Below the pieces are notes generated by a model. That model was not told where the DNA came from and made no database searches. It saw nothing but the letters and a program-made list of their open reading frames with translations. 23,027 nt of DNA from a virus: the IMG/VR virus record IMGVR_UViG_3300033977_000159, positions 1-23,027 of that record; one strand, written 5' to 3'. This document shows, one piece after another, positions 590-22,020 of the stretch. A program made the position numbers and the translations under genes. Each line of letters opens with the position of its first letter. The stretch's first letter is position 1.

Positions 590-1597
590 TCACCATTGAC
601 CATATGAGTACGGGTTCGCTGGGCCAAGGGGAAGGCCATAGGCACCAGCCCCAGTGATCCCCGCTCCGGGGTACATAACCCAGTTATCAAGCTCGCGGTC
701 ACTCGCCCTCAGCGCCGTATTCAAGCTCTCCAGCCATTCCTGGAACGAAGCCATATGCTCCCTGATTCCATTCGGCAGATTCCTCTGAAGGCCCCGTATA
801 AAACCGGTGCGGAAAAGATAGGAATATTCGTTGGGAACCGGCGCAATGGTCTGCATAACAGAAGACAGCGCTGGCGGCTTCATCTGATAAACCGCATTCA
901 CTTGCCACACAATTCCTGATAATGGAGGCAGGGTTCCAAGCCTGATTCCCACTCCTCGCGGATCGGCCACGGTCCAGGTCACGGTATTGTCTTGTACCGT
1001 GCTTCCGGGAGCAGCATTAGGTCCAGCGTTTGGAATGGTTTGGCCGCTTACCCCGAAGCCGGTTACGAATAAATAATTGCCGGAGGGATCCACTATCTGC
1101 TGAATCGGGCTGGCCGGTGTCTGAGCGGCACCCAGCCCGGTCGGGTAGGCCGTATTGGACTGCCAGGCTCCGAAAGTGCAAAGAGGAATGGGTAGCCAGC
1201 AAGCTCCAAATGGCGTGGTCTGCATGTAAGTCGGGGGAAGATCCCGGTCGGCTTCCATGGGGAACAATGGCTTTGGATATGCGGTGTTGTTGATGTCAAT
1301 TCTCGTGCAGGCTTCCAGCCATCCCATATCCAAGACACTGACATAGTTTGAACGCAAGGCAGTGACCCCGATATAGTCTTGCTGCAAAGACACCGTAAGG
1401 AACGGATTAACGTATTGCCTGTTAAATTTCCAATTGAGCGGCTGGGCGAGAATATGCTGCATGATTTCATTGGCCGTAACAATGGCGGCCGCATTTGCCC
1501 ACCCGGATTCCGGAAGCACCGGAGTCAGTTCCGGTATGGTGCGTGCATAATGAATAAGATCCTGCACGGTAATAGTTGAGTTGCTAAGTAACGCCAT
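590..1597 (-). CDS. Tail/connector-like structural protein, paralogue 4, with inserted binding-type domain
   Basis: This 335-residue protein is the last of four tandem paralogues. It keeps the family N-terminus (VQDLIHYARTIPELTPVLP, a Trp, then an FNR where the others have WNR) and the C-terminal helical part (PVPNEYSYLFRTGF). Between them, at about residues 143-215, lies an inserted segment starting WQSNTAYPTG and ending TVTWTV. That resembles the small Trp-x-x-x-TAY beta modules found in many phage tail and chitin-binding proteins. The start overlaps the previous stop as TAATG and has an AGGGGG ribosome site. Location in the virion is inferred: such arrays lie in the tail module, but no named family is recognised. 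Confidence 0.85.
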   Translation of the reverse strand: MALLSNSTITVQDLIHYARTIPELTPVLPESGWANAAAIVTANEIMQHILAQPLNWKFNRQYVNPFLTVSLQQDYIGVTALRSNYVSVLDMGWLEACTRIDINNTAYPKPLFPMEADRDLPPTYMQTTPFGACWLPIPLCTFGAWQSNTAYPTGLGAAQTPASPIQQIVDPSGNYLFVTGFGVSGQTIPNAGPNAAPGSTVQDNTVTWTVADPRGVGIRLGTLPPLSGIVWQVNAVYQMKPPALSSVMQTIAPVPNEYSYLFRTGFIRGLQRNLPNGIREHMASFQEWLESLNTALRASDRELDNWVMYPGAGITGAGAYGLPLGPANPYSYGQW

Positions 1598-2394
1598 TAT
1601 TGCCCCCTGTTAGGGTTCGCGGGTATGCCTATCTGGAAATTACGCAGCGTGGTCACTCGCTGTATATCGGCCATACTGATTAGCCTTTCGGATTGAAACA
1701 GATTCCTAAAGGAGTCGGCCAGGCCGGTATTCAATCCTATCACCTCTCGTATGAATAAATCCATCGCCACGTCAGCCCTTGGATCGCCCACCATTTCGTA
1801 GCATTTGGCTAAAAATCCTTGCTGCATAATATTAATGCAACGGTCTGGAATGGGATCGAGAGATTGATAAATATTATAAATAATTGGCGGCCCCAATTGA
1901 TAGACGATATCTACATTGTAAGGCTGGTCGGGGGTGGGAAAAACCCTAAAACCAGGACAGTCAATAAGGGCGCTTTGTGGATCTGTAACGGATTCCGTTT
2001 GAAAAGAAATATATATAGGAGGAATTTGGGTGCTATCCAATGATAGAACCGGCCTAATTTCCAGTTCTTGATTAAAGGCCGGTGGTCCAGCCAGGCTTAA
2101 AGTCGCCCGCTCAAGATATCCAAAATAAGGAGAAGTACTTGAATATGGTTCGCATATATAGCCTACGTCTTGAATCCCCACTGTCAGGGTCACAGTATCC
2201 TCAATGCGGTTCCACGGATAACTGAAGGGGGAGCCTAAAATAAAACTCATTAATTGCTGGACAATAGAAACCGCCGGTTCCCTGCCCCATCCCGCAGCAC
2301 TCAATACCGGCGTTAAAGACGTATGTGACCTGGCATACCGCACCAGGTCATCTACAGTATAAGTACTTAATCCATATCCGGCAGTAAGAAACAT
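1597..2394 (-). CDS. Tail/connector-like structural protein, paralogue 3
   Basis: At 265 residues this is close to the minimal form of the four-member family. The N-terminal block reads VDDLVRYARSHTSLTPVLSA, followed by GWGREPAVSI and SYPWNR. A Gln-Asp and an aromatic-Leu-Glu-Arg-Ala segment (YLERATL) follow. The C-terminal block has PIPDR, QGFLAKCYEMVGDPRADVAM and FQSERLISMADIQRVTTLRN. It is most similar to the gene just upstream (2396-3727), which shares GDPRADVAMDLF and FQSERL. The ATG at 2394 has AGGGG six bases upstream and follows the previous stop by one base. A role in the neck or tail is inferred from position and from the mix of a beta-rich centre with a helical C-terminus. Confidence 0.88.
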   Translation of the reverse strand: MFLTAGYGLSTYTVDDLVRYARSHTSLTPVLSAAGWGREPAVSIVQQLMSFILGSPFSYPWNRIEDTVTLTVGIQDVGYICEPYSSTSPYFGYLERATLSLAGPPAFNQELEIRPVLSLDSTQIPPIYISFQTESVTDPQSALIDCPGFRVFPTPDQPYNVDIVYQLGPPIIYNIYQSLDPIPDRCINIMQQGFLAKCYEMVGDPRADVAMDLFIREVIGLNTGLADSFRNLFQSERLISMADIQRVTTLRNFQIGIPANPNRGQ

Positions 2395-2395
2395 A

Positions 2396-3727
2396 TTAGC
2401 CCCTAACCACGGGCGTTTGTAATCCCATGCCCAAATTGCGAAGATTGGAAACTCTCTGAATATCCGACAAGGTTAGCAGGCGCTCAGATTGGAACATATT
2501 TCTTTCCGCATCCGATAGGCATGTTTGTGCGCTAATTAATTGGCGCAAGAAAAGATCCATGGCCACGTCAGCCCTGGGATCCCCGACAATTTCATAGCAT
2601 TGCGCCAAAAATCCTTGATATATAATATGAATATAGCGGTCAGGGACGGGATCGAGCGTAGTGCTTAGATCTGTAATAACTGGAGGTGAGCTTTGAAGCA
2701 GTAAATCTAAAACATAATATTGGTCTGTAGAGGGAAAGAGTCGGAAACTAATTTCTTCCTGTAGGGTTTGTACTTGGAGTACCGCGACCTCGCATCCAGA
2801 TCCTCCCCAGCCAGGACTGGTAGGATAAGTACCAACTGAATATCCGCTTCCGTAAAACGAACCATAGGGCACTGTATTTATAGTGCCAATGCCGGTTCCG
2901 CTTAATGTCAAGACATGGACATATGCCCCGTTATTACCACCAACTATTTTTAGATTAAATGGAGGTGTGGCAGTATATCCAGATCCGCTTACTATGGGAG
3001 TTGGATCTAATGCCAATACGGCTCCCACTGGAAATTCAGAATTTATTGTCTCATTAATGGGACAAATGAAATCGGGTGCATTTTGAGTGGCATCCTGATC
3101 TAAACGATGGCGGATGCTTAATTCTTTATTAAAATTTTGCGGTGCTACTAAGGTGATTTGTACCGTTAATCCGGTGCCTCCGGATTGAGACATGCCAGTT
3201 GGGACTTGATTTCCCAATGAGTATCCGGCTCCGTAAAAACCGGCAGGAGGAGTGGGACCAATGGAAGTAACTGCGCCCCCACTAACTCCCGTAATAATTA
3301 CCTCGGCCGCATTATTCCCAGCCATGATATTTACGGTTGTTCCTATATCCGAAGATGAATATCCACTGCCTCCGGATTGCTGGGCGGGATTAAAGCTTAG
3401 GCTGTATACTTGTCCGGTTAATGTATTCAGTGTGGCTTTTTCAAGAAAATTAAACCATCCTCCGTAATAAGGGAGGGGCAGGGCGAGGCTGATATCTTGG
3501 GTGGCTGGAGGAACTAAAAGCTGTGTTTCATATCGATTCCATGGATAAGCAAAGGGGGGCCCCATAATAATAGCTAGGACCTTATTAAGGATAGAAACGG
3601 CAGGTTCCTGGCCCCATCCAGCGGAACTTATAATAGGATTCAAAGAGGCGTGGGAACGGGCATAACGCACCATGTCATGCCCATCAAAACTTGATATCCC
3701 TATAATATTAGGGTTAAGATAAGACAC
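2396..3727 (-). CDS. Tail/connector-like structural protein, paralogue 2, with Gly-rich repeat insertion
   Basis: A protein of 443 residues from a GTG at 3727; this start is chosen because AGAGGGG lies just upstream and the previous stop is one base away, whereas a TTG at 3745 has neither. N- and C-terminal blocks match the paralogues (MVRYARSHASLNPIIS, GWGQEPAVSI, YPWNR; later PVPDRYIHIIYQGFLAQCYE and GDPRADVAMDLF). The centre (about residues 100-320) is expanded by two related Gly-rich segments built on GSGYS/GAGYS/GSGYT and GGNNGA/AGNNAA motifs, of the kind seen in repetitive phage tail proteins. Inferred to be a virion component carrying surface-exposed decoration domains. Confidence 0.87.
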   Translation of the reverse strand: MSYLNPNIIGISSFDGHDMVRYARSHASLNPIISSAGWGQEPAVSILNKVLAIIMGPPFAYPWNRYETQLLVPPATQDISLALPLPYYGGWFNFLEKATLNTLTGQVYSLSFNPAQQSGGSGYSSSDIGTTVNIMAGNNAAEVIITGVSGGAVTSIGPTPPAGFYGAGYSLGNQVPTGMSQSGGTGLTVQITLVAPQNFNKELSIRHRLDQDATQNAPDFICPINETINSEFPVGAVLALDPTPIVSGSGYTATPPFNLKIVGGNNGAYVHVLTLSGTGIGTINTVPYGSFYGSGYSVGTYPTSPGWGGSGCEVAVLQVQTLQEEISFRLFPSTDQYYVLDLLLQSSPPVITDLSTTLDPVPDRYIHIIYQGFLAQCYEIVGDPRADVAMDLFLRQLISAQTCLSDAERNMFQSERLLTLSDIQRVSNLRNLGMGLQTPVVRG

Positions 3728-3728
3728 T

Positions 3729-4481
3729 TTAACCCCTCTCGGCAATATTATAACGAACAGAAGGTACCGGCTGTTTTTGGTTCAAGCCAGCATTATCGGC
3801 TATCATATGGCGCAATACAATACTGCGCTGTTCATCAGATAGGCCTTCGGCCGCCGAAGCCAATAATTGGAAGAATGTTTGCATGGCCCAAGGGGCTTTT
3901 TCATTGCCGGATTGCTCATAGGCCTTTGCCAAAAATCCGGCGCTGTAAACATAAGACAGATAATCCGGAAGGGGGGCCCATGATTGACCTGCGGGAGATG
4001 TGGTATTAAGGAAGGTCGGGCATGCCATTTGATAGGTTACGATCATTTGATATGAGGCATAGGGCATGGGCAGTACGCGAAAGGTTACACTGCCCGCGTT
4101 ATTATCTTCCTGTACTGAAATAAATGATGGCTCGTCTTCCTCATAATCAACGGCCAATGAATTGCGAATAACCAATTCTTTGGCCGGGCAATCCGCGTCG
4201 CCCCATATCATGGCCCTTTCTATCCACCCAAAATTAGCAATAGCAGTAGGATAGTCCTGAGAGCTTTGTGATATAGCTATGGAGCTGGATTCAGCCCTAT
4301 TCCATCTCCAGGCAAAAGGAGGTCCAAGAATAGTTTGCCTAACCCAGTCTCCTATACTGCACGCGGGTTCGTAAGGAAAAGACGGATTGTCCCCCACGCC
4401 GGTCAGGGGCCTTAATCCGCAAAAACATTGAACATACTCGATGGTCCTGGCCAGAGTATTAGTAGTCCATGATACGGGCAT
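3729..4481 (-). CDS. Tail/connector-like structural protein, paralogue 1
   Basis: This 250-residue protein is the first and most compact copy of the four-member array. Visible family features are an N-terminal helix (LARTIEYVQCFCGLRPLTGV), EPACSIGDWVRQ, ILGPPFAWRWNR, a Gln-Asp then GWIERAM, and a C-terminal PLPDYLSYVYSAGFLAKAYE. It lacks both the Gly-rich and the Trp-type insertions and has diverged from the GDPRADVAM signature. Its ATG has only a weak upstream ribosome site. It follows the 174-residue zinc-motif protein by 15 bases. I do not recognise a named family; a head-to-tail connector or tail-tube-type component is possible. Confidence 0.85.
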   Translation of the reverse strand: MPVSWTTNTLARTIEYVQCFCGLRPLTGVGDNPSFPYEPACSIGDWVRQTILGPPFAWRWNRAESSSIAISQSSQDYPTAIANFGWIERAMIWGDADCPAKELVIRNSLAVDYEEDEPSFISVQEDNNAGSVTFRVLPMPYASYQMIVTYQMACPTFLNTTSPAGQSWAPLPDYLSYVYSAGFLAKAYEQSGNEKAPWAMQTFFQLLASAAEGLSDEQRSIVLRHMIADNAGLNQKQPVPSVRYNIAERG

Positions 4482-5773: not shown

Positions 5774-5791
5774 GTTCACTGGTGCGTGAAC
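5774..5791 (-). promoter_or_regulatory. Hairpin with 6-bp stem and 6-base loop before a ribosome binding site
   Basis: The transcribed strand reads GTTCAC, loop GCACCA, GTGAAC, then AGAGGTG. The stem is perfect, and the first base belongs to the stop codon of the phosphatase gene. The architecture (stem, hexaloop, immediate Shine-Dalgarno) matches the CGGATT hairpins at 5034 and 10830, but the loop sequence differs. Confidence 0.5.
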
Positions 5792-6435
5792 TATGTAATG
5801 GCGTCTGCCGCATTTTCTTGAATTCGCGCTAAATCGGGTTTAAATATGGGTTTGGCATGAAAAGATTTGTCTTCGGTATAGTATATTGCCACCACTCCAC
5901 CGGGTTTGACCAGCACTGCATTATGGATTCCCTCGAACATGGTTCCAACTTCATGTATAATGCTGGAATGGGCAACAATAATTACTGGATGCCCGACTTT
6001 AATGGCATATTCCATGGCCTTGCGAATAACCGGAACTACGCGAATTTTGAAATGATTAAATGATTCGCCGCCCTTAATTGGCACATTTGGATTGGCTAGA
6101 TGGGCTGCGATCTCCGCCTTATTTTCTTCTGTTCTCGGCTGGCCGCCCAAATGTCCTACATTAAGCGCTTCTAATTGATCCGTAGTTAGGGGCTTCAGCC
6201 CTATGGCTTCGCCAATTACATTTGCCGTTTCTAGGCTGCGGATTTTATCGGAAGATAATAGAGAGCAAACAATGCCCTTGAGGGGTATGAAAAAATCGGC
6301 TAATTCATGCGCTTGCTGTCTGCCTTTGGCATCTAATTCCGGATTCATGGGACCTCGGTATAAATCCTTGGCATTTAATACCGTTTCCCCATGGCGCACA
6401 ACATATACTAAAATGTTATCTGGATTAATATCCAT
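5791..6435 (-). CDS. Histidine phosphatase family protein (phosphoglycerate-mutase-like)
   Basis: This 214-residue protein has the hallmarks of the two-histidine phosphatase superfamily. They are RHGET at residues 14-18 (H15 the phospho-accepting His), SSDKIRSLETAN at about 61-72 supplying the second Arg (R66), an acidic residue near E89, and VAHSS with the second catalytic His at H156. Length fits a single-domain member. The family hydrolyses or transfers phosphate on sugars, nucleotides, small molecules or phosphoproteins; the substrate cannot be read here. It starts at an ATG with AAGGT upstream and sits among structural and zinc-motif genes, not with the sugar cassette. A role in sugar-phosphate handling is possible but unproven. 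Confidence 0.93.
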   Translation of the reverse strand: MDINPDNILVYVVRHGETVLNAKDLYRGPMNPELDAKGRQQAHELADFFIPLKGIVCSLLSSDKIRSLETANVIGEAIGLKPLTTDQLEALNVGHLGGQPRTEENKAEIAAHLANPNVPIKGGESFNHFKIRVVPVIRKAMEYAIKVGHPVIIVAHSSIIHEVGTMFEGIHNAVLVKPGGVVAIYYTEDKSFHAKPIFKPDLARIQENAADAIT

Positions 6436-7068: not shown

Positions 7069-7509
7069 TTAATGGGCGCTTGCGAAATTACCAGCTTTAT
7101 CTAAGGCAAGTAGGTCGGGATCTGTACCCAGTGATTTAGTGGCAAACTGTGCTGCATAAGCGGCATTAGTTGCGGCAGAAAGTTTAGGATCATTGCCCTG
7201 AATAATTTCTAGGGCAGCGAGTCGATTGACGGTAGACAAGCTTGCATTCTTGGCATCATCCACTAGAAAGGTATAAGTTTTAGCCTCGAATGCAGCGGGC
7301 ACCGATTCCCCGGTAACATTTCCCATTGCATAGTTTACCTTCACAACATCATTGGCATTGGAAAGGGTCTGGGCTGCTGGACTTGTGCCAGCCAGGCTTT
7401 GCAATTGCGCTAAAGCGGCTTTCTGAACTGCCGATGGGGCGGCATCATTGCGGGCCAGGTCATATAACATAGTGACTGGGAGTTTGGTGTAATCTATTGT
7501 TACAGCCAT
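7069..7509 (-). CDS. Small DYTxLPxTMLYD protein, copy 1
   Basis: A 146-residue Ala-rich protein. Residues 6-45 (beginning DYTKLPVTMLYDLARND) are homologous to the N-terminus of the gene at 6439-6783. The rest is different: Ala/Asn/Leu-rich helices such as TVNRLAALEIIQGNDPKLSA, without the long charged coil of the paralogue. No transmembrane segment or catalytic motif is seen. It starts at an ATG with GAGG seven bases upstream. Position between capsid and tail genes suggests a minor virion or assembly protein, by inference only. Confidence 0.86.
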   Translation of the reverse strand: MAVTIDYTKLPVTMLYDLARNDAAPSAVQKAALAQLQSLAGTSPAAQTLSNANDVVKVNYAMGNVTGESVPAAFEAKTYTFLVDDAKNASLSTVNRLAALEIIQGNDPKLSAATNAAYAAQFATKSLGTDPDLLALDKAGNFASAH

Positions 7510-13549: not shown

Positions 13550-15539
13550 ATCCAATAAGGCCGCCGCCAAGCATGCTTGGCAATTCATCGGAAGACGGAA
13601 TTGCTTTTAATCCTTGATCTAGTGGTTCTTGAAAAGCCGTTTCCGGCAAGGAGCCGTGAAAGCCAGGCCGCCCAAATGGATCTGGATATATTTCTGCATC
13701 TGGAGAGAAACCCTCTTTCCAGTCATGATACACCAGATTCCATGCCGCGTCTTCTCTGCTCCAGATCGGAAATTCCTTTTTATCGATCATGATCTGGATC
13801 TGCGGAACATATCGTAGTTGCTGGGAGATGACATCCGGAATATCATCATGATGATGGGCAGTTAAGCAGCGCTCAAATTCATAATATAGAGTATCAAGAT
13901 AAGGTAAGTGTGATACAAACCAAAGTCTTTCTGCCACCAACCAGGGATGCATAGCCGCCATGCGGGCACGCTTGGCATCTTTAGTTTGAGTAGGAGTAAA
14001 CCAATCAACAGCCTTGCAGATAGATAACAACCAGGGTTTATTGCGTCCCTCTGCTTCTGCCCTAATGCTGGGATCTAGAAGTTCGGACCCACCGGCCCTT
14101 TCAATGGCCAGCACGGTGGGATGGTATCTATCAGCAAAATCTACCACGGCCTTAGTTAGTTCTGTTGGGGTAAATCTTTGCCTAATGAGGTCGATGACAA
14201 ATAACTGACCCTTATTATTATAAATTGAGGCGGCTCCCGCCGTATAATCCCGCCCACGCTTCTTAGAGAACCCGAAATCCCAGGTGATGATAACCGGGCC
14301 CACGGTAGGAATTAGATTAAAAGGAATGGTCCTTTTTACTAGCAATGTTCGCTCAAAACTAACCGTAGTTCTGGGATGGGGATTCTGGTTGATCTGTCCC
14401 TCAAAGCTGGCCTCATCATCGCGCTGCTTGCGGCGCATGCTTCCATAAGAAATGTGATTAGGAAAGAGAATAAAATAATCTTTTTCAGTTAAATTTTCTT
14501 CCTTAATCTTATTGTCTAAAAGCTGCTTTTCAATCTCCGGCTTTAATTGCCATCCTTTTCCTATGATTACAATCTTACCGGTACTAAGATTGCGCTGAAT
14601 TTCCCACGGCCTGGGATCGTCTGTATTATCCAGCCCGCGCTCTATTTTCAATTCACCTACGTTCTGTATCAACTCCCGCCCGTAATGATCGTCTTCCGAA
14701 TATCTAGTACCCACCATATCCAGGTATCCATTGGGCACGAGCATATTTTTGTTGATATAAAAATTCTTACTAACCTTAGCGCACATTTCCGGGCTGCCAC
14801 TATTAATGGTTGCAACCATGTCATCGGCCTTAAGAACCTCACAATGCCATCCAGCAATCGTAGCATTGCCAGATAGCGCCATGACCGTAGCCTCTTTGCG
14901 CTGAATTTGTTTTTTAGCCCATTCGGGGCAAGTAAAATTAGGTCCCTTTAAATCTTTTTCAGGTACGCAGAATTCCGGGAAAAAGAGATTCATGGGAGAG
15001 GGCCCGTGTGCCTCTTCGGGGCGAATTACAAAATGCCCCTTAATCTCGTCTACGAAACCAACCGCCAGGGTATCCTCGGCGGTGAGCAGTACGATCCTAA
15101 TATCCGGAAAGTTTAAAATCCATTGCACCGCATCGCAGGCATCGATGGTGCTTTTGAAGCTGGCCCGTGGATAAAGAATAAGCCTTTCTTTATAAAGAGG
15201 ATCTTGCTCAAGAATCGGCCTGGTGTCATCCTTTTTTACGAAGACGCTAATGAGCGGGCCATGAACCTCACGGCAAATCTTATTCTCTTCTATCGGCTTG
15301 CCTACGCCGTCAGGCAGTGTGGGCCAAAGAAAATACTTGCACGCCCAGAACAGGTCCGATTTGGTGCGGCGTCTAACTTCTTTTGTATAAGGAAGTTCCT
15401 TGAATTCGTCCAGGGTAATTTCGCTATGCTTGGCGCGAATCAGGGACTTAGTTTCAGGGCCCACCATCCACCGGTAGAGATCAGGGTCCGGTATCGCCTC
15501 CGGAGATCCAAATTGTTCTATCAGGCCTTCGAATTCCAT
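13548..15539 (-). CDS. terL: Terminase large subunit (ATPase-nuclease)
   Basis: A 663-residue DNA packaging motor. The ATPase domain shows a Walker A-like PRASFKST (residues 124-131), Walker B in EVLKADDMV (234-242, Asp-Asp in place of Asp-Glu) and the coupling motif VGTRYSEDD (about 276-284). The RNase H-like nuclease shows ITWDFGF (D421), LAIERAGGSE (E480) and HHHDDIPD (D565/D566/D569). All key acidic residues are present. It cuts and pumps DNA through the portal, whose gene follows. The start overlaps the upstream stop as TAATG. The mode of packaging (headful or site-specific) cannot be read, and no small terminase is recognised in the window. Confidence 0.96.
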   Translation of the reverse strand: MEFEGLIEQFGSPEAIPDPDLYRWMVGPETKSLIRAKHSEITLDEFKELPYTKEVRRRTKSDLFWACKYFLWPTLPDGVGKPIEENKICREVHGPLISVFVKKDDTRPILEQDPLYKERLILYPRASFKSTIDACDAVQWILNFPDIRIVLLTAEDTLAVGFVDEIKGHFVIRPEEAHGPSPMNLFFPEFCVPEKDLKGPNFTCPEWAKKQIQRKEATVMALSGNATIAGWHCEVLKADDMVATINSGSPEMCAKVSKNFYINKNMLVPNGYLDMVGTRYSEDDHYGRELIQNVGELKIERGLDNTDDPRPWEIQRNLSTGKIVIIGKGWQLKPEIEKQLLDNKIKEENLTEKDYFILFPNHISYGSMRRKQRDDEASFEGQINQNPHPRTTVSFERTLLVKRTIPFNLIPTVGPVIITWDFGFSKKRGRDYTAGAASIYNNKGQLFVIDLIRQRFTPTELTKAVVDFADRYHPTVLAIERAGGSELLDPSIRAEAEGRNKPWLLSICKAVDWFTPTQTKDAKRARMAAMHPWLVAERLWFVSHLPYLDTLYYEFERCLTAHHHDDIPDVISQQLRYVPQIQIMIDKKEFPIWSREDAAWNLVYHDWKEGFSPDAEIYPDPFGRPGFHGSLPETAFQEPLDQGLKAIPSSDELPSMLGGGLIG

Positions 15540-15964
15540 TAGAGTAATGCGAGTTTACGCAGCCATCCAAAGTAAAAAACAGCAATGGCTATATTTCCCA
15601 AGACGCCCTCACTCATCACATCGTATATTTGATACCATAGAAAAAGGCATAATATCCAAGAGGCCAGCTTGGGCGCAAACATGATACGAAGAAATCTATA
15701 AAAAATTAATCCCACAACTAGCCAAATTAAATAAAATTCCAAATGCAAGGCAACGGCGGGCCCCATCCAAAATGTATGCGTGCCGAGATGCCTGCACATT
15801 TCATTGGATTCGCCCCATCCCGGAATAAGTGCGCTATCTATATATGATATCGTGATATCTAAAAGGTCGGCTATCAAAACCAGTATGACGGTAATCCACA
15901 GGGCGGAAAACGCCTCCATGTTCTGCCGGACCTTATTGTACGAGAGTCTGAGCCAATTTCTCAT
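15539..15964 (-). CDS. Small integral membrane protein
   Basis: A 141-residue protein with about four hydrophobic segments: roughly residues 18-42 (ALWITVILVLIADLLDITIS), 64-92 (VALHLEFYLIWLVVGLIFYR), 97-113 and 118-136. Loops contain IPGWGESNEMCRHLG, which loosely resembles small multi-pass proteins of unknown function. The gene overlaps the end of the 4-epimerase-like gene by 32 bases and is coupled to TerL by TAATG. It could be a holin (late region, small, multi-pass), a glycan export or anchoring factor (next to the sugar cassette), or a superinfection-exclusion protein. No motif decides between these. Confidence 0.83.
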   Translation of the reverse strand: MRNWLRLSYNKVRQNMEAFSALWITVILVLIADLLDITISYIDSALIPGWGESNEMCRHLGTHTFWMGPAVALHLEFYLIWLVVGLIFYRFLRIMFAPKLASWILCLFLWYQIYDVMSEGVLGNIAIAVFYFGWLRKLALL

Positions 15965-16913
15965 TTACGATTTCCTTAATCACCGCAGCCAGTGCGGTGG
16001 TGGGCCTGAAGCCGGTCAAGGCTTCAAGCTTTTCCAAGGACGGCACGCGCCTAACCATGTCTTCGAACCCGGATGCGTATGCCTCATCGTAGGAAATGTA
16101 ATGAAGAGGCGAAGGGCTCTGCGTAATCTCCTTAACTTGAATGGCTAGATCTTCTATGCTAATTTCTTTATCGTTCCCGATATTAACTACCTGTCCGTAT
16201 GCCTTGCCAGTGTCCATCAGTTTCAATATGGCACTTACGGCATCTTTAACGTATCCGAAGCACCGGGTCTGCTTACCGGTTCCGTATACGGTTAATGGAC
16301 GCCCGGACATCGCCTGATCGATGAAGGTGGGTAGCACCATGCCATACCGGCCGGTTTGCCGGGGCCCCACGGTATTAAATAGCCTGCCAATGACTACCGG
16401 AAGGCCAGTTTCTTGCGCATAAGCAAGGGCCAAAAATTCATCCAGTGCCTTGGAGCATGCATACGACCACCGGGATTTCACGGTGGGCCCGAAAACGCTA
16501 TCGCCGTCTTCTGTAAACGGGATGCTCCGGCTCTTACCGTACACCTCAGAGGTGGAGGCGATAAATACTGGCTTAGATTTTACGGATGCGAATCTCAATA
16601 CCAATGCCGTACCCTGCACGTTGGTTTCAATAGTGCGAGTCGGCTCTTCTATGATCTTGCGAACTCCCACGGAGGCGGCCAAGTGAAATATCATATCGGC
16701 CCTATCTATCCACATCGGCAGGCTGGTGCTATTGGTTATATCAGCGTGGACAAAGACAAGCCTGGGACTGCGTTCAAGCCCTAGACTATCGATGTTTCGT
16801 ATCGATCCCGTACTGAGATCATCGATAACAATAACAGTATCCCCCCTCTTAAGAAGGTCCTCAACAAGGTGAGATCCGATAAAGCCTGCTCCACCTGTCA
16901 CAAGAGATATCAT
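15933..16913 (-). CDS. NAD-dependent sugar-nucleotide epimerase/dehydratase (UDP-glucose 4-epimerase-like)
   Basis: A 326-residue short-chain dehydrogenase of the extended type. GGAGFIG (7-13) is the NAD-binding loop, followed by DDLSTG and FHLAASVGV. The catalytic triad is visible as STSEVYG (120-126) plus YACSK (Y151, K155). GRLFNTVGPRQTGRYGMVLP and TRCFGYVKDAV are typical of UDP-glucose 4-epimerases and UDP-glucuronate decarboxylases. Most likely it makes a UDP-sugar such as UDP-Gal or UDP-GalNAc, the donors used by GT6 and GT31 enzymes encoded upstream. A UDP-xylose-type product is an alternative. The start follows the basic 76-residue gene by three bases; the ribosome site is weak. Confidence 0.9.
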   Translation of the reverse strand: MISLVTGGAGFIGSHLVEDLLKRGDTVIVIDDLSTGSIRNIDSLGLERSPRLVFVHADITNSTSLPMWIDRADMIFHLAASVGVRKIIEEPTRTIETNVQGTALVLRFASVKSKPVFIASTSEVYGKSRSIPFTEDGDSVFGPTVKSRWSYACSKALDEFLALAYAQETGLPVVIGRLFNTVGPRQTGRYGMVLPTFIDQAMSGRPLTVYGTGKQTRCFGYVKDAVSAILKLMDTGKAYGQVVNIGNDKEISIEDLAIQVKEITQSPSPLHYISYDEAYASGFEDMVRRVPSLEKLEALTGFRPTTALAAVIKEIVNEKLAQTLVQ

Positions 16914-16916
16914 ATG

Positions 16917-17147
16917 TTATCGCTTTTTCCATCCCATCATGGTCTTTGCTAGGCGGGCCTGTTTACCAAGCACGCCAGGGGCATGCGCTTTTTCTTTCGC
17001 ATACTCAGCCGTGCTCTTACCGGCTCGGCGAGCCTTTGCGCTAAATGCACCAGGCCTCTTAATCTTGATGGTCGCCTTCACTCTCTTAAGTTTAATAACC
17101 TTGGGCTTGCGAGATCTGCCCCGTCCTAAAACTTCATCGGCCGCCAT
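16917..17147 (-). CDS. Small highly basic protein (LGxGRxRK type)
   Basis: A 76-residue protein, strongly Lys/Arg-rich (KVIKLKRVKATIKIKRPGAF), ending ARLAKTMMGWKKR. The N-terminus holds VLGRGRSRK, shared in pattern with two other basic proteins in this window (21983-22180 and 22382-22828). No known family is recognised. Such charge suggests binding of DNA, RNA or an acidic partner. It is embedded between sugar genes, with a good AGAGGT ribosome site before the ATG at 17147. Confidence 0.82.
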   Translation of the reverse strand: MAADEVLGRGRSRKPKVIKLKRVKATIKIKRPGAFSAKARRAGKSTAEYAKEKAHAPGVLGKQARLAKTMMGWKKR

Positions 17148-17152
17148 GTTTA

Positions 17153-17875
17153 TTACCTCTCAATTTTTAAAATCGTTTCGGGGTCATCCCCCGCATATTC
17201 AGATAAAATATTTGGTTGTATGGTTAATTCCATGCCCAATTTATTGGCTATAACCGACGCAGCGGTCTGATCGTGTCGATGCCCCAATACTCTTGGATCC
17301 GGAGAGGCTTGATGTTTATCATTTACCCAAGGGCCGCAGAAGGCCCCGCTTATTGAAAGATCCCGATACCAATTGAAAAATTTAGCCCCTTGTGAATTAG
17401 CCAAGTTCAATCCAAATGTAGTGCCCACCACTTGTGGAATGGAAAATGCTTCTTCACGATTAATATCTAATATTGGCAATGCATCGTCACAGGTCCATTG
17501 TCCACAATTCCAATTGGCATTCTTTGCAAACCAATATCCTAAACTTTCCAATCTCCGCCACAATGGAGACAGCGATCTTACCGCAAAGACAGAAGAATCT
17601 GCCCATAAGATTAATCTAAAATCGGCTAGCTGAGCGGCGCGAATTGCATATGACTTAAAAGCATACGGAACCGATAAATGTTCCGGGCATCCATAGGGCA
17701 ATTCTCGATATACAAGTAAAGAAGCCTCTTCTCCATATTCTAAAAAACTATTTATCCACCTATTAAGCTTGGCGGAAAATGGCTTGCCCAACATAAATTC
17801 TTCATTGGGCTTGCCCACATCCACTCTATTGCCAACTGCTACAGTAACTATAGCTCGTCTTAAATTTTTGTCCAT
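17153..17875 (-). CDS. Putative glycosyltransferase, unassigned family
   Basis: A 240-residue protein. The segment LILWADSSVF (88-97) looks like the acidic DxD/DxS sugar-nucleotide site that follows a YAFKSYAIRAAQ helix, and HRHDQTAASVIANKLGM resembles the C-terminal His-Asp-Gln region of GT-A-like enzymes of viruses and bacteria. No signal peptide or membrane segment. The start overlaps the GT11 gene by 16 bases, so it is part of the same cassette. I cannot place it in a CAZy family; the donor and acceptor are unknown. A non-catalytic relative is possible. Confidence 0.78.
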   Translation of the reverse strand: MDKNLRRAIVTVAVGNRVDVGKPNEEFMLGKPFSAKLNRWINSFLEYGEEASLLVYRELPYGCPEHLSVPYAFKSYAIRAAQLADFRLILWADSSVFAVRSLSPLWRRLESLGYWFAKNANWNCGQWTCDDALPILDINREEAFSIPQVVGTTFGLNLANSQGAKFFNWYRDLSISGAFCGPWVNDKHQASPDPRVLGHRHDQTAASVIANKLGMELTIQPNILSEYAGDDPETILKIER

Positions 17876-18675
17876 CGCTCCGGGATAATATCCTTGGTAT
17901 CAAGATATGCAAACTGTGGCCCAAACCATCTACTAGGGGCAATTATAATCCTATTATCCTGCACATCGCCTAGCCATGCCCCCCACCATGAAAAAGAGCT
18001 ATTGGCGATAATACCATGCCTACATAAACTCATGAGCCAAATATCTTCATGCTCATTGCCCGGCTGATCGCTTCCAAAATATCTACCTCCAGGTTTAGTA
18101 CAATCCACTACAGTAAATTCAGGAAAAGTTTCTTTACACCATTGACGATCATCCGAAAATACAAAAAACTGAACATCTTTATCCATTTTCCGGATACGAT
18201 CAATGCCTTCATTATAATAAGTCATGCCCAGTGTTAGATGATAATCTGGATTGGGCCCCTCTATATAATCCGATCTTCGCACATGAATAAATGCGCTATG
18301 CCCATGTAATTTATTAATGCGTTCGACTGTATTCCTGCAAGATTCACTAAACACCTTAGGCTTGAAATAATCCAATACGAGTAAGGTATTAAAATATTTT
18401 TCAGTTTGCCATTGTCCGATAAAATAAGTTCCGTTAGGAACGGTATAGGCATGAGGATTAAAAGAATAAGGATCTTCTGTGTATATTGGAGCGCCCGATG
18501 GATCGCAAAACTTTATAGGAAGATCAAAGACGCCCAGACAATAACAGCGCTTAGGATCGGCGTCCACTCGATCCCTGGTAAAAAATATAGGCTCTTCCCG
18601 GCACATGGCAACTGAAAATCCGAAGGCAGCCCCAAACATCTGATTGCCAAGACCGCCCTGTAGGCGCACTATCAT
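17860..18675 (-). CDS. GT11 family glycosyltransferase (alpha-1,2-fucosyltransferase-like)
   Basis: A 271-residue cytosolic enzyme with the family landmarks: GGLGNQMF (7-14), FIGQWQTEKYF, the donor-binding HVRRSDY (131-137), FFVFSDD (170-176) and the C-terminal ANSSFSWWGAWL (224-235). Length is typical of bacterial GT11. Known members transfer L-fucose from GDP-fucose to the O2 of galactose, making H-antigen-like structures. No GDP-fucose synthase is visible here, but a GDP-mannose 3,5-epimerase-like gene is, so GDP-L-galactose (6-hydroxy-fucose) is a possible donor by inference. The start overlaps the GT31 stop as ATGA. Confidence 0.93.
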   Translation of the reverse strand: MIVRLQGGLGNQMFGAAFGFSVAMCREEPIFFTRDRVDADPKRCYCLGVFDLPIKFCDPSGAPIYTEDPYSFNPHAYTVPNGTYFIGQWQTEKYFNTLLVLDYFKPKVFSESCRNTVERINKLHGHSAFIHVRRSDYIEGPNPDYHLTLGMTYYNEGIDRIRKMDKDVQFFVFSDDRQWCKETFPEFTVVDCTKPGGRYFGSDQPGNEHEDIWLMSLCRHGIIANSSFSWWGAWLGDVQDNRIIIAPSRWFGPQFAYLDTKDIIPERWTKI

Positions 18676-19493
18676 AAATAAAATTTCTTCAAAAGTTCTT
18701 CTATTGCCGAGCTAGAGCAATATTTAGATTTTCTTTCTTGTAGCAATTTCGCCATACATAGACGATTTACTATAGTAACGCTTTCATTTCTTGCCAATGC
18801 AAACAGTATTTCATCGGGAAGATTTCCATGCTTATCACGCTGATAATCCATCAGGGCGCTTGGAATTCTTCCTGTATAAGCAGCATGAGCCATAAGCAAT
18901 TGAACCTTTGAGCAGCGATGGGTACTAATCAGATTATTAGATGGCAGTGGTTGGGCAGTTTTAATGCTATCACAATAACGTTGATCTACTATGGGTATAA
19001 TTCCAGCGCGAATTAATACTTTTCCAACTGCCACATCTTCCGCCTCATGCAAGGCTGCGAATTCTTCTACTGAGACAGATAAAATAGCATGAATCGCTTT
19101 ACTGCTTAACCAATATCCTGGCCCTCCAAGTAAATAGCCATCATTTGGGCCCCAACTCCATCCAGTGTAATCTAGACTTTCGAAGCCGCTACGCTCCAGC
19201 CTATCACCGGCAATAAAAGTATCTGTATCCATTTTATATACATGCCGGTAATGATTTTTATCTGCCCAGGCTAGCATAGCATACGTTTTACGAGGTAAGC
19301 CCTTATAGTCATCGGGCACATCCAACCAAATTTCATCATCAGCCAGTTCTGATTGTGGATTGCCAATAAAGATCTTGACATCAGCCCAATGAACATCCTG
19401 CATCCATGTCTGGCGCAATATATCATGAATAAATCTATTTTTATGACAGGACAAAACGCTAATTAGGCATTGTGAAGCATTTGATGTAACCAC
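18672..19493 (-). CDS. GT31-like beta-1,3-glycosyltransferase
   Basis: A 273-residue enzyme resembling GT31 galactosyl/GlcNAc transferases: CLISVLSCHKNRFIHDILRQ with TWMQD at the N-terminus, KMDTDTF (88-93) as the metal-binding DxD, GGPGYWLS (123-130) and EAEDVAVG (150-157). The C-terminus (ALARNES, KLLQERKSKY) matches the end of the GT6-GT31 fusion upstream, so the two are duplicates. It probably adds a beta-1,3 hexose. The start is GTG at 19493, inside the previous gene (31-base overlap), with GAG seven bases upstream; no better start lies nearby. Confidence 0.87.
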   Translation of the reverse strand: MVTSNASQCLISVLSCHKNRFIHDILRQTWMQDVHWADVKIFIGNPQSELADDEIWLDVPDDYKGLPRKTYAMLAWADKNHYRHVYKMDTDTFIAGDRLERSGFESLDYTGWSWGPNDGYLLGGPGYWLSSKAIHAILSVSVEEFAALHEAEDVAVGKVLIRAGIIPIVDQRYCDSIKTAQPLPSNNLISTHRCSKVQLLMAHAAYTGRIPSALMDYQRDKHGNLPDEILFALARNESVTIVNRLCMAKLLQERKSKYCSSSAIEELLKKFYL

Positions 19494-20956
19494 TTCATGC
19501 TCGCTGGAGAATCTACCTGAGTGATGGCCGTTAATTTATTTAGATGTGGAAGTAATGCGTGAATATCTATCAGTGGAAGATATTTAGATTGACGCCTTAC
19601 TAGAATCGCAACCGCAACCATCCTACTCGTACTGGGGGCGCTTTCATTCTGGGCTACCTGAAATACAGTGTTATCTGGCAAGACTTCTAGCTCGTGTTCT
19701 ATCCTATATCTATTGAGAAAAAACGAATCCAGGGATTCAAAAAATACATAATCTGGAAGCGAGGCCAGGGTAATTCCAGCCTTGCCAAGAATATCACCAA
19801 CCCACCTATCTTCTGCCCAGCAATCATCGACATCAGAAGAAGCCACGATTTGCATAGCCCGCTTACCTAGCCAATATCCTCCACCGCTAGCAAAGCTATA
19901 AGGAAATGTGCCAGATGGATAATCGGGAATTCCCATTTCTGGCTTTCCGCTATCTTGGGGAGAAAAAACAATGCCTGCATATTCATAAGGGGGGATCGCT
20001 AGCCGGGACGCCACTAAATATCCATCATCATCCATTTTTAAAAGATGTTCATATCCCCGATCTAGTGCCCATTGCACAATGGCCTTGGTTTTAACCGGAA
20101 GGAATAGATAGTCATCGCTAACTCCAAGCCGGGCACCGGTCATGATTTCTATATTCCACCCCCTCATCCTAGCATCTTTAATCCATGTTTCTTGCTGTAT
20201 TTGCACCCTTTCTTTATATTTATCTATATCGCATGTGCAAATAGCAATCAGGGCATCTTGAGGAGCATTATGAGGTAGGCCTTTTTCTAGATGCATAATC
20301 TTTGGTTTAAAATCTTTAGGATTGCCAGATAGCCATCTTTCTGGATTGACTAAATATTTAAGATCTGGAAAGCAATATGATGGAGTTAATATTTTAGCAG
20401 GGGGATATTTCCAAAAATAATGATTGACATAACTTTCATCCCACCACGCTCCAATAATACCAATCTTTCTATCTGATTCTATGCCATTAGCCGCAGATTT
20501 TGCTAGCTTTAAAAATTCCTGAGTCGCCCCTCCCACCGGACAACAATGGAAATAGGTTGGGTGGCCAACGACGCAGGCGGCAGATTCTTTTCTACGTTCA
20601 AAAGAATCCGGATACATAGGATGCAATGTTGCAGTCAGCCCATCACCAAGAATTTCTTCATTATTCACGGGCTGGCATGCCAGCATATCTAAATCAAAAA
20701 GAAAAATATATTTATACTGTTGAAATCTTGCCTGCTCACGAAGAATTAAAGGGAACCGTTGCAGATTCGCTTCGGTAAAGTTTGAGGCTGTACACGGAAT
20801 GGTAATAGCATCATAAATGCGTTTACTATCTGTAAAAAGAATAATATCGTGAGGTGGAAAGAAATCGTGTAGAGAAGATATGAATGGCTGGATATAGGAT
20901 TCGTATTTTTCTCCAGTAGCAAAAACAACGATTGCCAATTCAGGAGATATTGCCAT
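19463..20956 (-). CDS. Two-domain glycosyltransferase: GT6 (ABO-like) fused to GT31-like
   Basis: A 497-residue fusion. Residues 1-225 match GT6 (vertebrate alpha-1,3-Gal/GalNAc transferases and bacterial/phage relatives): IVVFATGEKYESYIQPF, FLFDLDM with DxD at 88-90, TLHPMYPDSFERR, and AWWDESYVNHYF with the catalytic Glu at E174, then ILTPSYCFPD. Residues 234-400 match GT31: QQETWIKDA, KMDDDGY (308-313), SFASGGGYWLGK and AEDRWVG. A C-terminal tail (QNESA, RRQSKY) is shared with the next gene. Known GT6 enzymes add alpha-1,3-Gal or GalNAc; GT31 adds beta-1,3-Gal or GlcNAc. The fusion could add two sugars in sequence. The start overlaps the epimerase stop as TAATG. Confidence 0.9.
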   Translation of the reverse strand: MAISPELAIVVFATGEKYESYIQPFISSLHDFFPPHDIILFTDSKRIYDAITIPCTASNFTEANLQRFPLILREQARFQQYKYIFLFDLDMLACQPVNNEEILGDGLTATLHPMYPDSFERRKESAACVVGHPTYFHCCPVGGATQEFLKLAKSAANGIESDRKIGIIGAWWDESYVNHYFWKYPPAKILTPSYCFPDLKYLVNPERWLSGNPKDFKPKIMHLEKGLPHNAPQDALIAICTCDIDKYKERVQIQQETWIKDARMRGWNIEIMTGARLGVSDDYLFLPVKTKAIVQWALDRGYEHLLKMDDDGYLVASRLAIPPYEYAGIVFSPQDSGKPEMGIPDYPSGTFPYSFASGGGYWLGKRAMQIVASSDVDDCWAEDRWVGDILGKAGITLASLPDYVFFESLDSFFLNRYRIEHELEVLPDNTVFQVAQNESAPSTSRMVAVAILVRRQSKYLPLIDIHALLPHLNKLTAITQVDSPASMKWLHQMLHNA

Positions 20957-22020
20957 TAAAACGCGATCCGTTTTCCGGATTTCTTGGCCATGTATTGCTT
21001 TTCTATCCAGGCATAGGTTTTGGCAAGGCCTACACTAAATGGTATCTTGGGCTCCCAATGCAGGATTCTTTGAATCATAGTGTTGTCACTATTTCTTCTT
21101 ACAACACCACGGGGTGCGCTTTTGTCGTAATAACGGTTAAGTTTAACACCTCCGATGGCCTCCGCCATATCCACCAACTGGTTTACGGAAATTACCTCGC
21201 TAGATCCCAGATTAATAGGGGTTGCAATAAGATCCTCGCAATGTACAATTTTGTCTATGCCCAGCGTGCAATCATCGATAAACGTATAGCTTCGTTCCTG
21301 TGAGCCGTCGCCCCAGATAATAATATCATGATTGCCGGTATCCTTAGCCTCAATCACTTTCCTGCAAATGGCTGCCGGTGCCTTTTCCCGGCCCCCATAC
21401 CAGGTTCCGAATGGACCGTACATATTATGAAAGCGAGCAATGAAAGTCTTCATGCCGCGTTCTACCCAATATTCCTGGCATACCATTTCTGAAAACAACT
21501 TCTCCCAGCCATATCCACGCTCACACATGGCAGGATAAGCATCGGACTCCTTAAGTGCTGGACAGTTCGGGTCCTGCTGTAGGGTGATATTATATGCGCA
21601 AGCGGAACAGGAAAAGAAGTAGCGCTCCGCTCCGGCCAGATAGGCAGCTTCAATCATGTGGGTATTAATAAGAACGCTGCGTAGGCATTCTATTCGGAAC
21701 TTCTCAATAAATCCCATGCCGCCCATATTGGCGGCCAGGTTATAAACTTCCGTAGCGCCTTCGCAGGCCCTAATACAATTATCTCTCTCGCTTAGATCCA
21801 GGCAAAGATTTTCAACGCCGGGCATCCTTTGATACCATTCCGATAGAGGTTTTTTATCAATAGCCCGTATATTCCTAAAGCCTTTATCGTAAAAGTATCT
21901 AACAAGATTACCGGCAATAAAGCCACCTGCGCCACTAATAACTATTACGTTATTTATTCTGTCATTCAGCATGTGATATTGGTCAAGATAATTGTTTCGG
22001 TAATCTAGCTCTAAAGCCAT
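20956..22020 (-). CDS. GDP-mannose 3,5-epimerase-like enzyme
   Basis: A 354-residue extended short-chain dehydrogenase very like plant GDP-mannose 3,5-epimerase. It has GAGGFIAG (30-37), NMGGMGFI, SCSACAYN with the catalytic Cys (C141), ALKESDAYPA, YGWEK (Y170, K174), and RFHNMYGPFGTWYGGREKAP with the second catalytic Lys (K213). Further matches are WGDGSQERSYTFIDD and RRNSDN. The known reaction converts GDP-D-mannose to GDP-L-galactose (and GDP-L-gulose). The plant-like active-site set makes this assignment strong. It heads the transferase cassette. ATG at 22020 has GGAG at suitable distance and overlaps the basic 65-residue gene. Confidence 0.92.
   Translation of the reverse strand: MALELDYRNNYLDQYHMLNDRINNVIVISGAGGFIAGNLVRYFYDKGFRNIRAIDKKPLSEWYQRMPGVENLCLDLSERDNCIRACEGATEVYNLAANMGGMGFIEKFRIECLRSVLINTHMIEAAYLAGAERYFFSCSACAYNITLQQDPNCPALKESDAYPAMCERGYGWEKLFSEMVCQEYWVERGMKTFIARFHNMYGPFGTWYGGREKAPAAICRKVIEAKDTGNHDIIIWGDGSQERSYTFIDDCTLGIDKIVHCEDLIATPINLGSSEVISVNQLVDMAEAIGGVKLNRYYDKSAPRGVVRRNSDNTMIQRILHWEPKIPFSVGLAKTYAWIEKQYMAKKSGKRIAF
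20966..20982 (-). repeat. 17-base motif before the GT6-GT31 gene, copy of one at 13533
   Basis: The transcribed strand reads AAATCCGGAAAACGGAT, containing the inverted repeat ATCCG / CGGAT, ten bases before the ATG. It differs from 13533-13549 at one position. Here it also encodes the end of the epimerase (KSGKRI), so the match may be chance. Confidence 0.35.

Follow-up and report, generated by a model that had tools for sequence, protein, structure and literature searches.

In Escherichia coli O86 the O antigen is produced with glycosyltransferases of families GT11 and GT6, and the same two families, in this order, make the human ABO/H antigens. GT6 genes have also been reported in two cyanophages (PMC3961637). 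The Prochlorococcus phage P-SSM2 has GT11 and GT6 in one gene run, as does the locus described here, but with a true GDP-mannose dehydratase (GMD), that is, with a GDP-L-fucose supply. Cyanophage S-SCSM1 shares with our locus a GDP-mannose 3,5-epimerase (GME) and an alpha-1,2-fucosyltransferase, but also has GMD and GDP-fucose synthase, and the part of its description considered here does not mention GT6 or GT31 (PMC9602691).

The locus lies in a 23,027 nt stretch of the IMG/VR record IMGVR_UViG_3300033977_000159 (below, the window), a 23 kb fragment of a phage genome. The phage origin is firm, since the same window encodes terminase and portal, along with a capsid protein whose gene is retained in related phages. 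The source is a soil-type bacterial virus in which glycosyltransferases of the human ABO/H families are encoded as a compact group. An Acidobacteriota host is suggested by a distantly related portal protein (32%) from one Tunturiibacter phage and by one MAG contig of Ca. Sulfotelmatobacter with a capsid match of 80%. Two further features are a histidine phosphatase superfamily gene at 5791-6435, whose position is conserved across the lineage, and four consecutive mutually homologous proteins (335, 265, 449, and 250 aa) at 590-4481, a duplicated family also seen in the related phages L004 and L005.

The preliminary description delimited a co-directional, overlapping block at 15933-22020, and all its genes are indeed found there on the minus strand, most of them overlapping by 1-31 bases. 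The block is operon-like and sits between the DUF6496 and terminase genes of the tailed phage. Its seven genes are given below in the order of transcription, each followed by its domains, with two further genes of the window at the end.

20956-22020, minus strand: predicted GDP-mannose 3,5-epimerase (GME)
19463-20956, minus strand: GT6-GT31 fusion glycosyltransferase, 497 aa
20363-20935, minus strand: GT6 domain of the fusion
19682-20269, minus strand: GT31-like domain of the fusion
19535-19681, minus strand: C-terminal helical module of the fusion, residues 426-474
18672-19493, minus strand: GT31 beta-1,3-glycosyltransferase, 273 aa
18681-18821, minus strand: C-terminal three-helix module of GT31, residues 225-271
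17860-18675, minus strand: GT11, alpha-1,2-fucosyltransferase family, proposed L-galactosyl/L-fucosyl transferase
17153-17875, minus strand: candidate glycosyltransferase, no family
16916-17147, minus strand: small basic protein
15933-16913, minus strand: extended SDR, UDP-glucuronate decarboxylase-like (UDP-xylose-synthase-like)
15539-15964, minus strand: hydrophobic protein, 141 aa
7069-7509, minus strand: small protein with helical module (about 7399-7482), between MCP and the histidine-phosphatase gene

The first five genes overlap each other by 1-31 bases, as expected for coupled translation, while the SDR gene 15933-16913 is separated from this run by the small basic ORF. Further downstream are the hydrophobic ORF, terminase, portal, and capsid. 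The hydrophobic protein, which has no Pfam match, is possibly also a part of the cassette.

The profile searches proposed in the preliminary description place the GT6, GT11, and GT31 proteins in the families named there, with key residues intact, so that the refuting outcome envisaged there, other families or disrupted residues, did not occur. The N-terminal half of the fusion belongs to GT6 (PF03414, E 3e-17, 62.9 bits at the cut-off of 25), with PHROGs in agreement and PDB matches ranging from BoGT6a to ABO transferases (4ayj, E 4e-18; 1vzt, E 4e-15). Its donor motif, H137-C-C, is found in the window only among 78 viral GT6s, most of which have AGG; H137 presumably resembles the residue of alpha-3-GalT, which we treat as a lead only. 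Both the DxD motif (D88-x-D90) and the catalytic Glu (D173-E174) are present, and both are retained in 78/78 aligned viral GT6s (78 distinct sequences, L175-L334 and the window). Hence all 78 have the metal-type DxD, and none has NxN, typical for most bacterial GT6s (PMC3961637). A scan of viral sequences with the fusion as a single protein yielded no relatives, whereas profile scans did find them.

Of the two GT31-like enzymes expected, the free-standing one is confirmed (PF01762 Galactosyl_T, E 5e-8, 33.4 bits at the cut-off of 23), while the second is the C-terminal half of the fusion, a domain below the cut-off (E 8e-4, 19.7 bits) aligning with the first at 31%. The AlphaFold model of the free-standing protein (mean pLDDT 94) has a GT31 fold: the top Foldseek match in PDB is B3GalT6 (E 6e-11), and the best matches include human B3GalT6, B3GNT2, and B3GalT5 and fly C1GalT1, all from GT31. 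The GT11 assignment holds as well, with matches to PF01531 (E 3e-23) and phrog_2644 (E 5e-44), conserved GGLGNQMF, HxRR, and SWWGAWL blocks, and H131/R133/R134 of the HxRR motif invariant in the alignment.

The count of five transferases has to be revised, as GT6 and one GT31 constitute a single fused gene, and the fifth protein, 17153-17875, has no family match in Pfam, NCBIfam, PHROGs, or PDB. We consider it a candidate glycosyltransferase that may add a further group to the glycan. Two other viral loci encode homologues of it in the neighborhood of GME and GT11: L175 (IMGVR_UViG_3300037088_000377; 48%), which is the closest relative of the cassette, and L167 (38%); these homologues were recovered by profile scans, while the single-protein scan of viral sequences gave no relatives. 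The AlphaFold model built from two sequences has pLDDT of 38. Assignment to GT6 or GT31 is not supported, the profile-profile comparison giving approximately 3% probability. No homologue was observed in 396 genomes from the phylum of the capsid-bearing Acidobacteriota MAG, in a search run without a positive control.

Two sugar-nucleotide epimerases had also been proposed. Both proteins are sugar-nucleotide SDRs (PF01370, E 5e-55 for 15933-16913 and E 6e-28 for 20956-22020, PHROGs agreeing for both), but they differ in the predicted function. The best PDB matches of 15933-16913 are UDP-glucuronate decarboxylases (4lk3, E 1e-47), and the NCBIfam models among the matches listed are all below their cut-offs. 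For 20956-22020 the top PDB matches are GDP-mannose 3,5-epimerases (2c59/8sg0, E 1e-73), with GDP-fucose synthase far behind (1e-18), and the identity to Arabidopsis GME is 42% over 317 positions. The Arabidopsis residues S143/C145/Y174/K178/K217/R306 are all kept, as S139/C141/Y170/K174/K213/R309; S139, Y170, and K174 form the Ser-Tyr-Lys SDR triad. GME is distinguished by a Lys base and Arg, and GDP-fucose synthase by His and Lys (PMC8787198); the window protein has the catalytic Cys141, the Lys base K213, and R309. We conclude that 20956-22020 is a GME, predicted to convert GDP-D-mannose to GDP-L-galactose/GDP-L-gulose, so that the cassette's own GDP-sugar would be GDP-L-galactose. A search of the window for GMD or FCL retrieved these two SDRs only. 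As its epimerase is GME and not a GDP-fucose enzyme, the cassette alone would not make a true fucosylated ABO antigen.

GT11 is the sole GDP-sugar transferase recognized in the cassette by Pfam and NCBIfam, and fucosyltransferases, including the Arabidopsis alpha-1,2 enzyme, accept GDP-L-galactose (PMC8787198). Because of this combination, GT11 probably adds L-galactose where the H antigen has L-fucose. This agrees with the same gene order in L175, and with the cyanophages S-CAM9 and S-8S55, where GME, GT11, and GT6 are encoded, as in the window, by consecutive, overlapping genes; in both complete genomes the GMD model matches only GME itself, and weakly, so a true GDP-mannose dehydratase is absent. 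On the other side, GME seems often to serve something else, as GT11 is found nearby in only 12/74 non-redundant viral GME loci from the best-80 sample; GDP-L-galactose may in fact be used by protein 17153-17875; and a GDP-fucose pathway encoded elsewhere in the genome, outside this fragment, would also speak against L-galactose.

To put the cassette in context, we considered viral loci obtained by profile scans of IMG/VR, with glycosyltransferases and SDRs assigned by small purpose-built profiles. At least 294 GT6 relatives have been confirmed; the frequencies are given for, and apply to, the best 80 loci only. In 63/80 of them GT11 is located within 8 kb of GT6, always on the same strand and usually without GME. 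With near-copies removed, GT11 occurs within 6 kb at 36/48 GT6 loci, as opposed to the 12/74 GME loci mentioned above (Fisher p 8e-11, best-80 samples). Such strong linkage is expected if viral GT6 acts on the product of GT11. Accordingly, the order suggested in the preliminary description, an H-type unit followed by an A/B-type cap, agrees with the enzyme families, with this linkage, and with a GT31-GT11 fusion in L004 (see below), but fucose as the sugar involved is not supported by the supply gene of the cassette. We also observed two loci, L180 and L181 (IMGVR 3300050821_004356 and 3300046662_000041), with five GT31-like genes each in 17 kb, both with GT11 and one with GMD and FCL.

The same loci bear on the first alternative, an ordinary ABO/H-like product, with GDP-L-fucose supplied by the host or another region of the phage genome, GT11 forming the H-type unit, GT6 capping it with Gal or GalNAc, and GME used elsewhere. 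Where the supply is visible at GT6-GT11 loci (best 80 of at least 294), it is usually GMD and/or FCL, with GME in a minority, and close relatives of the window GT11, L176 and L179, adjoin GMD. Still, neither GMD nor FCL is found in the window, GME belongs to the overlapping run of GT11, and GME with GT11 and without GMD recurs in complete cyanophage genomes; we consider this alternative unlikely. In the GT11 tree the protein of the window pairs with that of L175 (SH-aLRT 96), L176 and L179, both linked to GMD, belong to the same group, and GT11s with GME nearby are scattered over several separate places (9 changes compared to 12.6 in shuffles, 0/500 as low). Both the scattering and the mixed composition of this group fit a history in which the sugar supply next to GT11 was replaced more than once. 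Whether GME and GMD/FCL strictly exclude each other in the vicinity of GT11 was also considered, but the counts (25, 7, and 1 with both) are too small to claim it.

In related phages, with terminases 44-60% identical, the position just upstream of terminase is occupied by different genes. L004 has GT31, a GHMP kinase, the GT31-GT11 fusion, an SDR, and a 455-aa protein; L013, a GT17-GT2 protein and a GT2; in L005 no glycosyltransferase gene was recognized in the slot. The small basic ORF marks the edge of the variable part and is retained in L004 and L013, and the hydrophobic protein is retained in L004. As related phages hold different contents at the same place, we interpret it as an exchangeable glycosylation slot inside the structural gene block. 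In L005 (6476-9481), and also in L040, the terminase gene itself contains an intein-like insert of approximately 340 residues (1001 compared to 663 aa), as judged by eye.

A likeness of approximately 45 residues unites the tails of both GT31 domains of the window, the linker of the L004 GT31-GT11 fusion, the start of the L004 455-aa protein, and the end of the L013 GT17-GT2 protein, with a weaker copy in the L013 GT2. Thus, the module is carried by slot glycosyltransferases of different families in three related phages. In the GT31 model it forms three confident helices (227-235, 241-253, and 261-272). A profile built from the five tails alone retrieves small proteins of related phages among 30,081 ORFs (E 4e-7 to 2e-4), and, reciprocally, the best matches of a profile of these small proteins, beyond their own copies, are the window GT31 (2e-5), the fusion (6e-5), and the window protein 7069-7509 (2e-4). 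The small protein follows MCP in every relative, directly preceding the histidine-phosphatase gene wherever that gene is found on the locus. In total the module is observed in the window, L004, L013, L005, L008, L011, L014, L018, L027, and L060, while it is absent from the glycosyltransferases of roughly 240 further viral loci with sugar genes. The module is most simply explained as a docking tag that was taken from, or is common to, a head-region phage protein, although it may instead only aid folding or oligomerization. Its presence in both the enzymes and a head-region protein modestly supports virion proteins as the target, and is a hint that a phage component serves as the dock of these enzymes and that the virion, not LPS, receives the sugars. 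Many of the small proteins after MCP (L005, L014, L039, L055, L060, L025, and others) also have a recurring [AS]-S-[VFI]-T-T motif near the end.

From the observed gene content, families, key residues, linkage, and module we propose the following activities, order, donor, and target. GME would convert host GDP-mannose to GDP-L-galactose; a GT31 enzyme would extend an acceptor by Gal or GlcNAc in beta-1,3 linkage; GT11 would add alpha-1,2-L-galactose (or L-fucose, if supplied by the host); and the GT6 half of the fusion would cap the chain with alpha-1,3-Gal or GalNAc. Two of these enzymes would be tethered to a phage protein by the lineage-specific helical module, the likeliest target being a virion protein, and the alternative, a host surface glycan. 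Such a swappable late-region cassette, making an oligosaccharide by H and A/B logic with L-galactose in the fucose position and with phage-held enzymes, is our tentative preference, with a probability a little short of even. A bolder version, which we find rather doubtful, is that the phage coats its own virion with an L-galactose analog of the H/B antigen, the module bringing the enzymes to the assembling head, and that relatives swap transferases on the same dock, yielding a variable glycan coat.

The second alternative, partly overlapping with that of host-supplied fucose and in our view comparably unlikely, is remodeling of the host surface, where the cassette alters LPS or capsule to block superinfection or to release progeny from decoy receptors, similarly to O-antigen conversion. 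It is favored by the action of GT11 and GT6 on the O antigen in E. coli O86 and by the hydrophobic protein beside the cassette; moreover, GME is tied to bacterial LPS synthesis (PMC8787198), and this is the usual interpretation of sugar genes in cyanophages (PMC9602691). However, no flippase, polymerase, ligase, or lipid-linked initiating transferase was recognized by Pfam among the proteins scanned, the cassette is inside the late structural gene block, and the module ties its enzymes to a phage gene. Transfer of the sugars to phage DNA as a protection from restriction is very improbable, as, despite the existence of phages with pentose-modified DNA (PMC12838424) and the UDP-xylose-synthase-like SDR, GT6, GT11, and GT31 are glycan-elongating families, and reading of the ORFs revealed no base hydroxymethylation gene in the window.

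The preliminary description knew of no phage system with the full set of enzymes. With respect to GT11 and GT6 this needs correction, as the pair is widely distributed among viral contigs and has been annotated in both P-SSM2 and S-CAM9; the full set, with two GT31 domains and a GT6-GT31 fusion, was not found in any other phage. The core of ABO/H synthesis is, therefore, a recurring feature of viral genomes and not a rarity, and some phages pair GT11 with the enzyme for GDP-L-galactose instead of the GDP-fucose pathway. If GT11 indeed uses L-galactose, phages would be a natural source of L-galactosyltransferases. The common module, in turn, offers a concrete route to the targets of these enzymes, whereas the targets of most phage glycosyltransferases are unknown.

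Compared with known systems, the closest cassette is that of L175, with GME, GT31, GT11 (57% identical), and the homologue of 17153-17875 in the same order, but with no GT6 found, extra methyltransferase-like ORFs, and a second GT11. Since no match to terminase was obtained on its 64 kb contig, L175 probably represents another phage lineage, and the cassette has probably moved between lineages. S-CAM9 and S-8S55, unlike the window phage, are Kyanoviridae infecting Synechococcus; their GT6 is a separate gene with the donor motif QGC rather than HCC, and no GT31 is annotated in the stretch examined. Finally, E. coli O86 and the human ABO/H system use L-fucose provided by GDP-fucose enzymes, without GME or a fused GT31, whereas the phage cassette combines the same GT11 and GT6 families with both.
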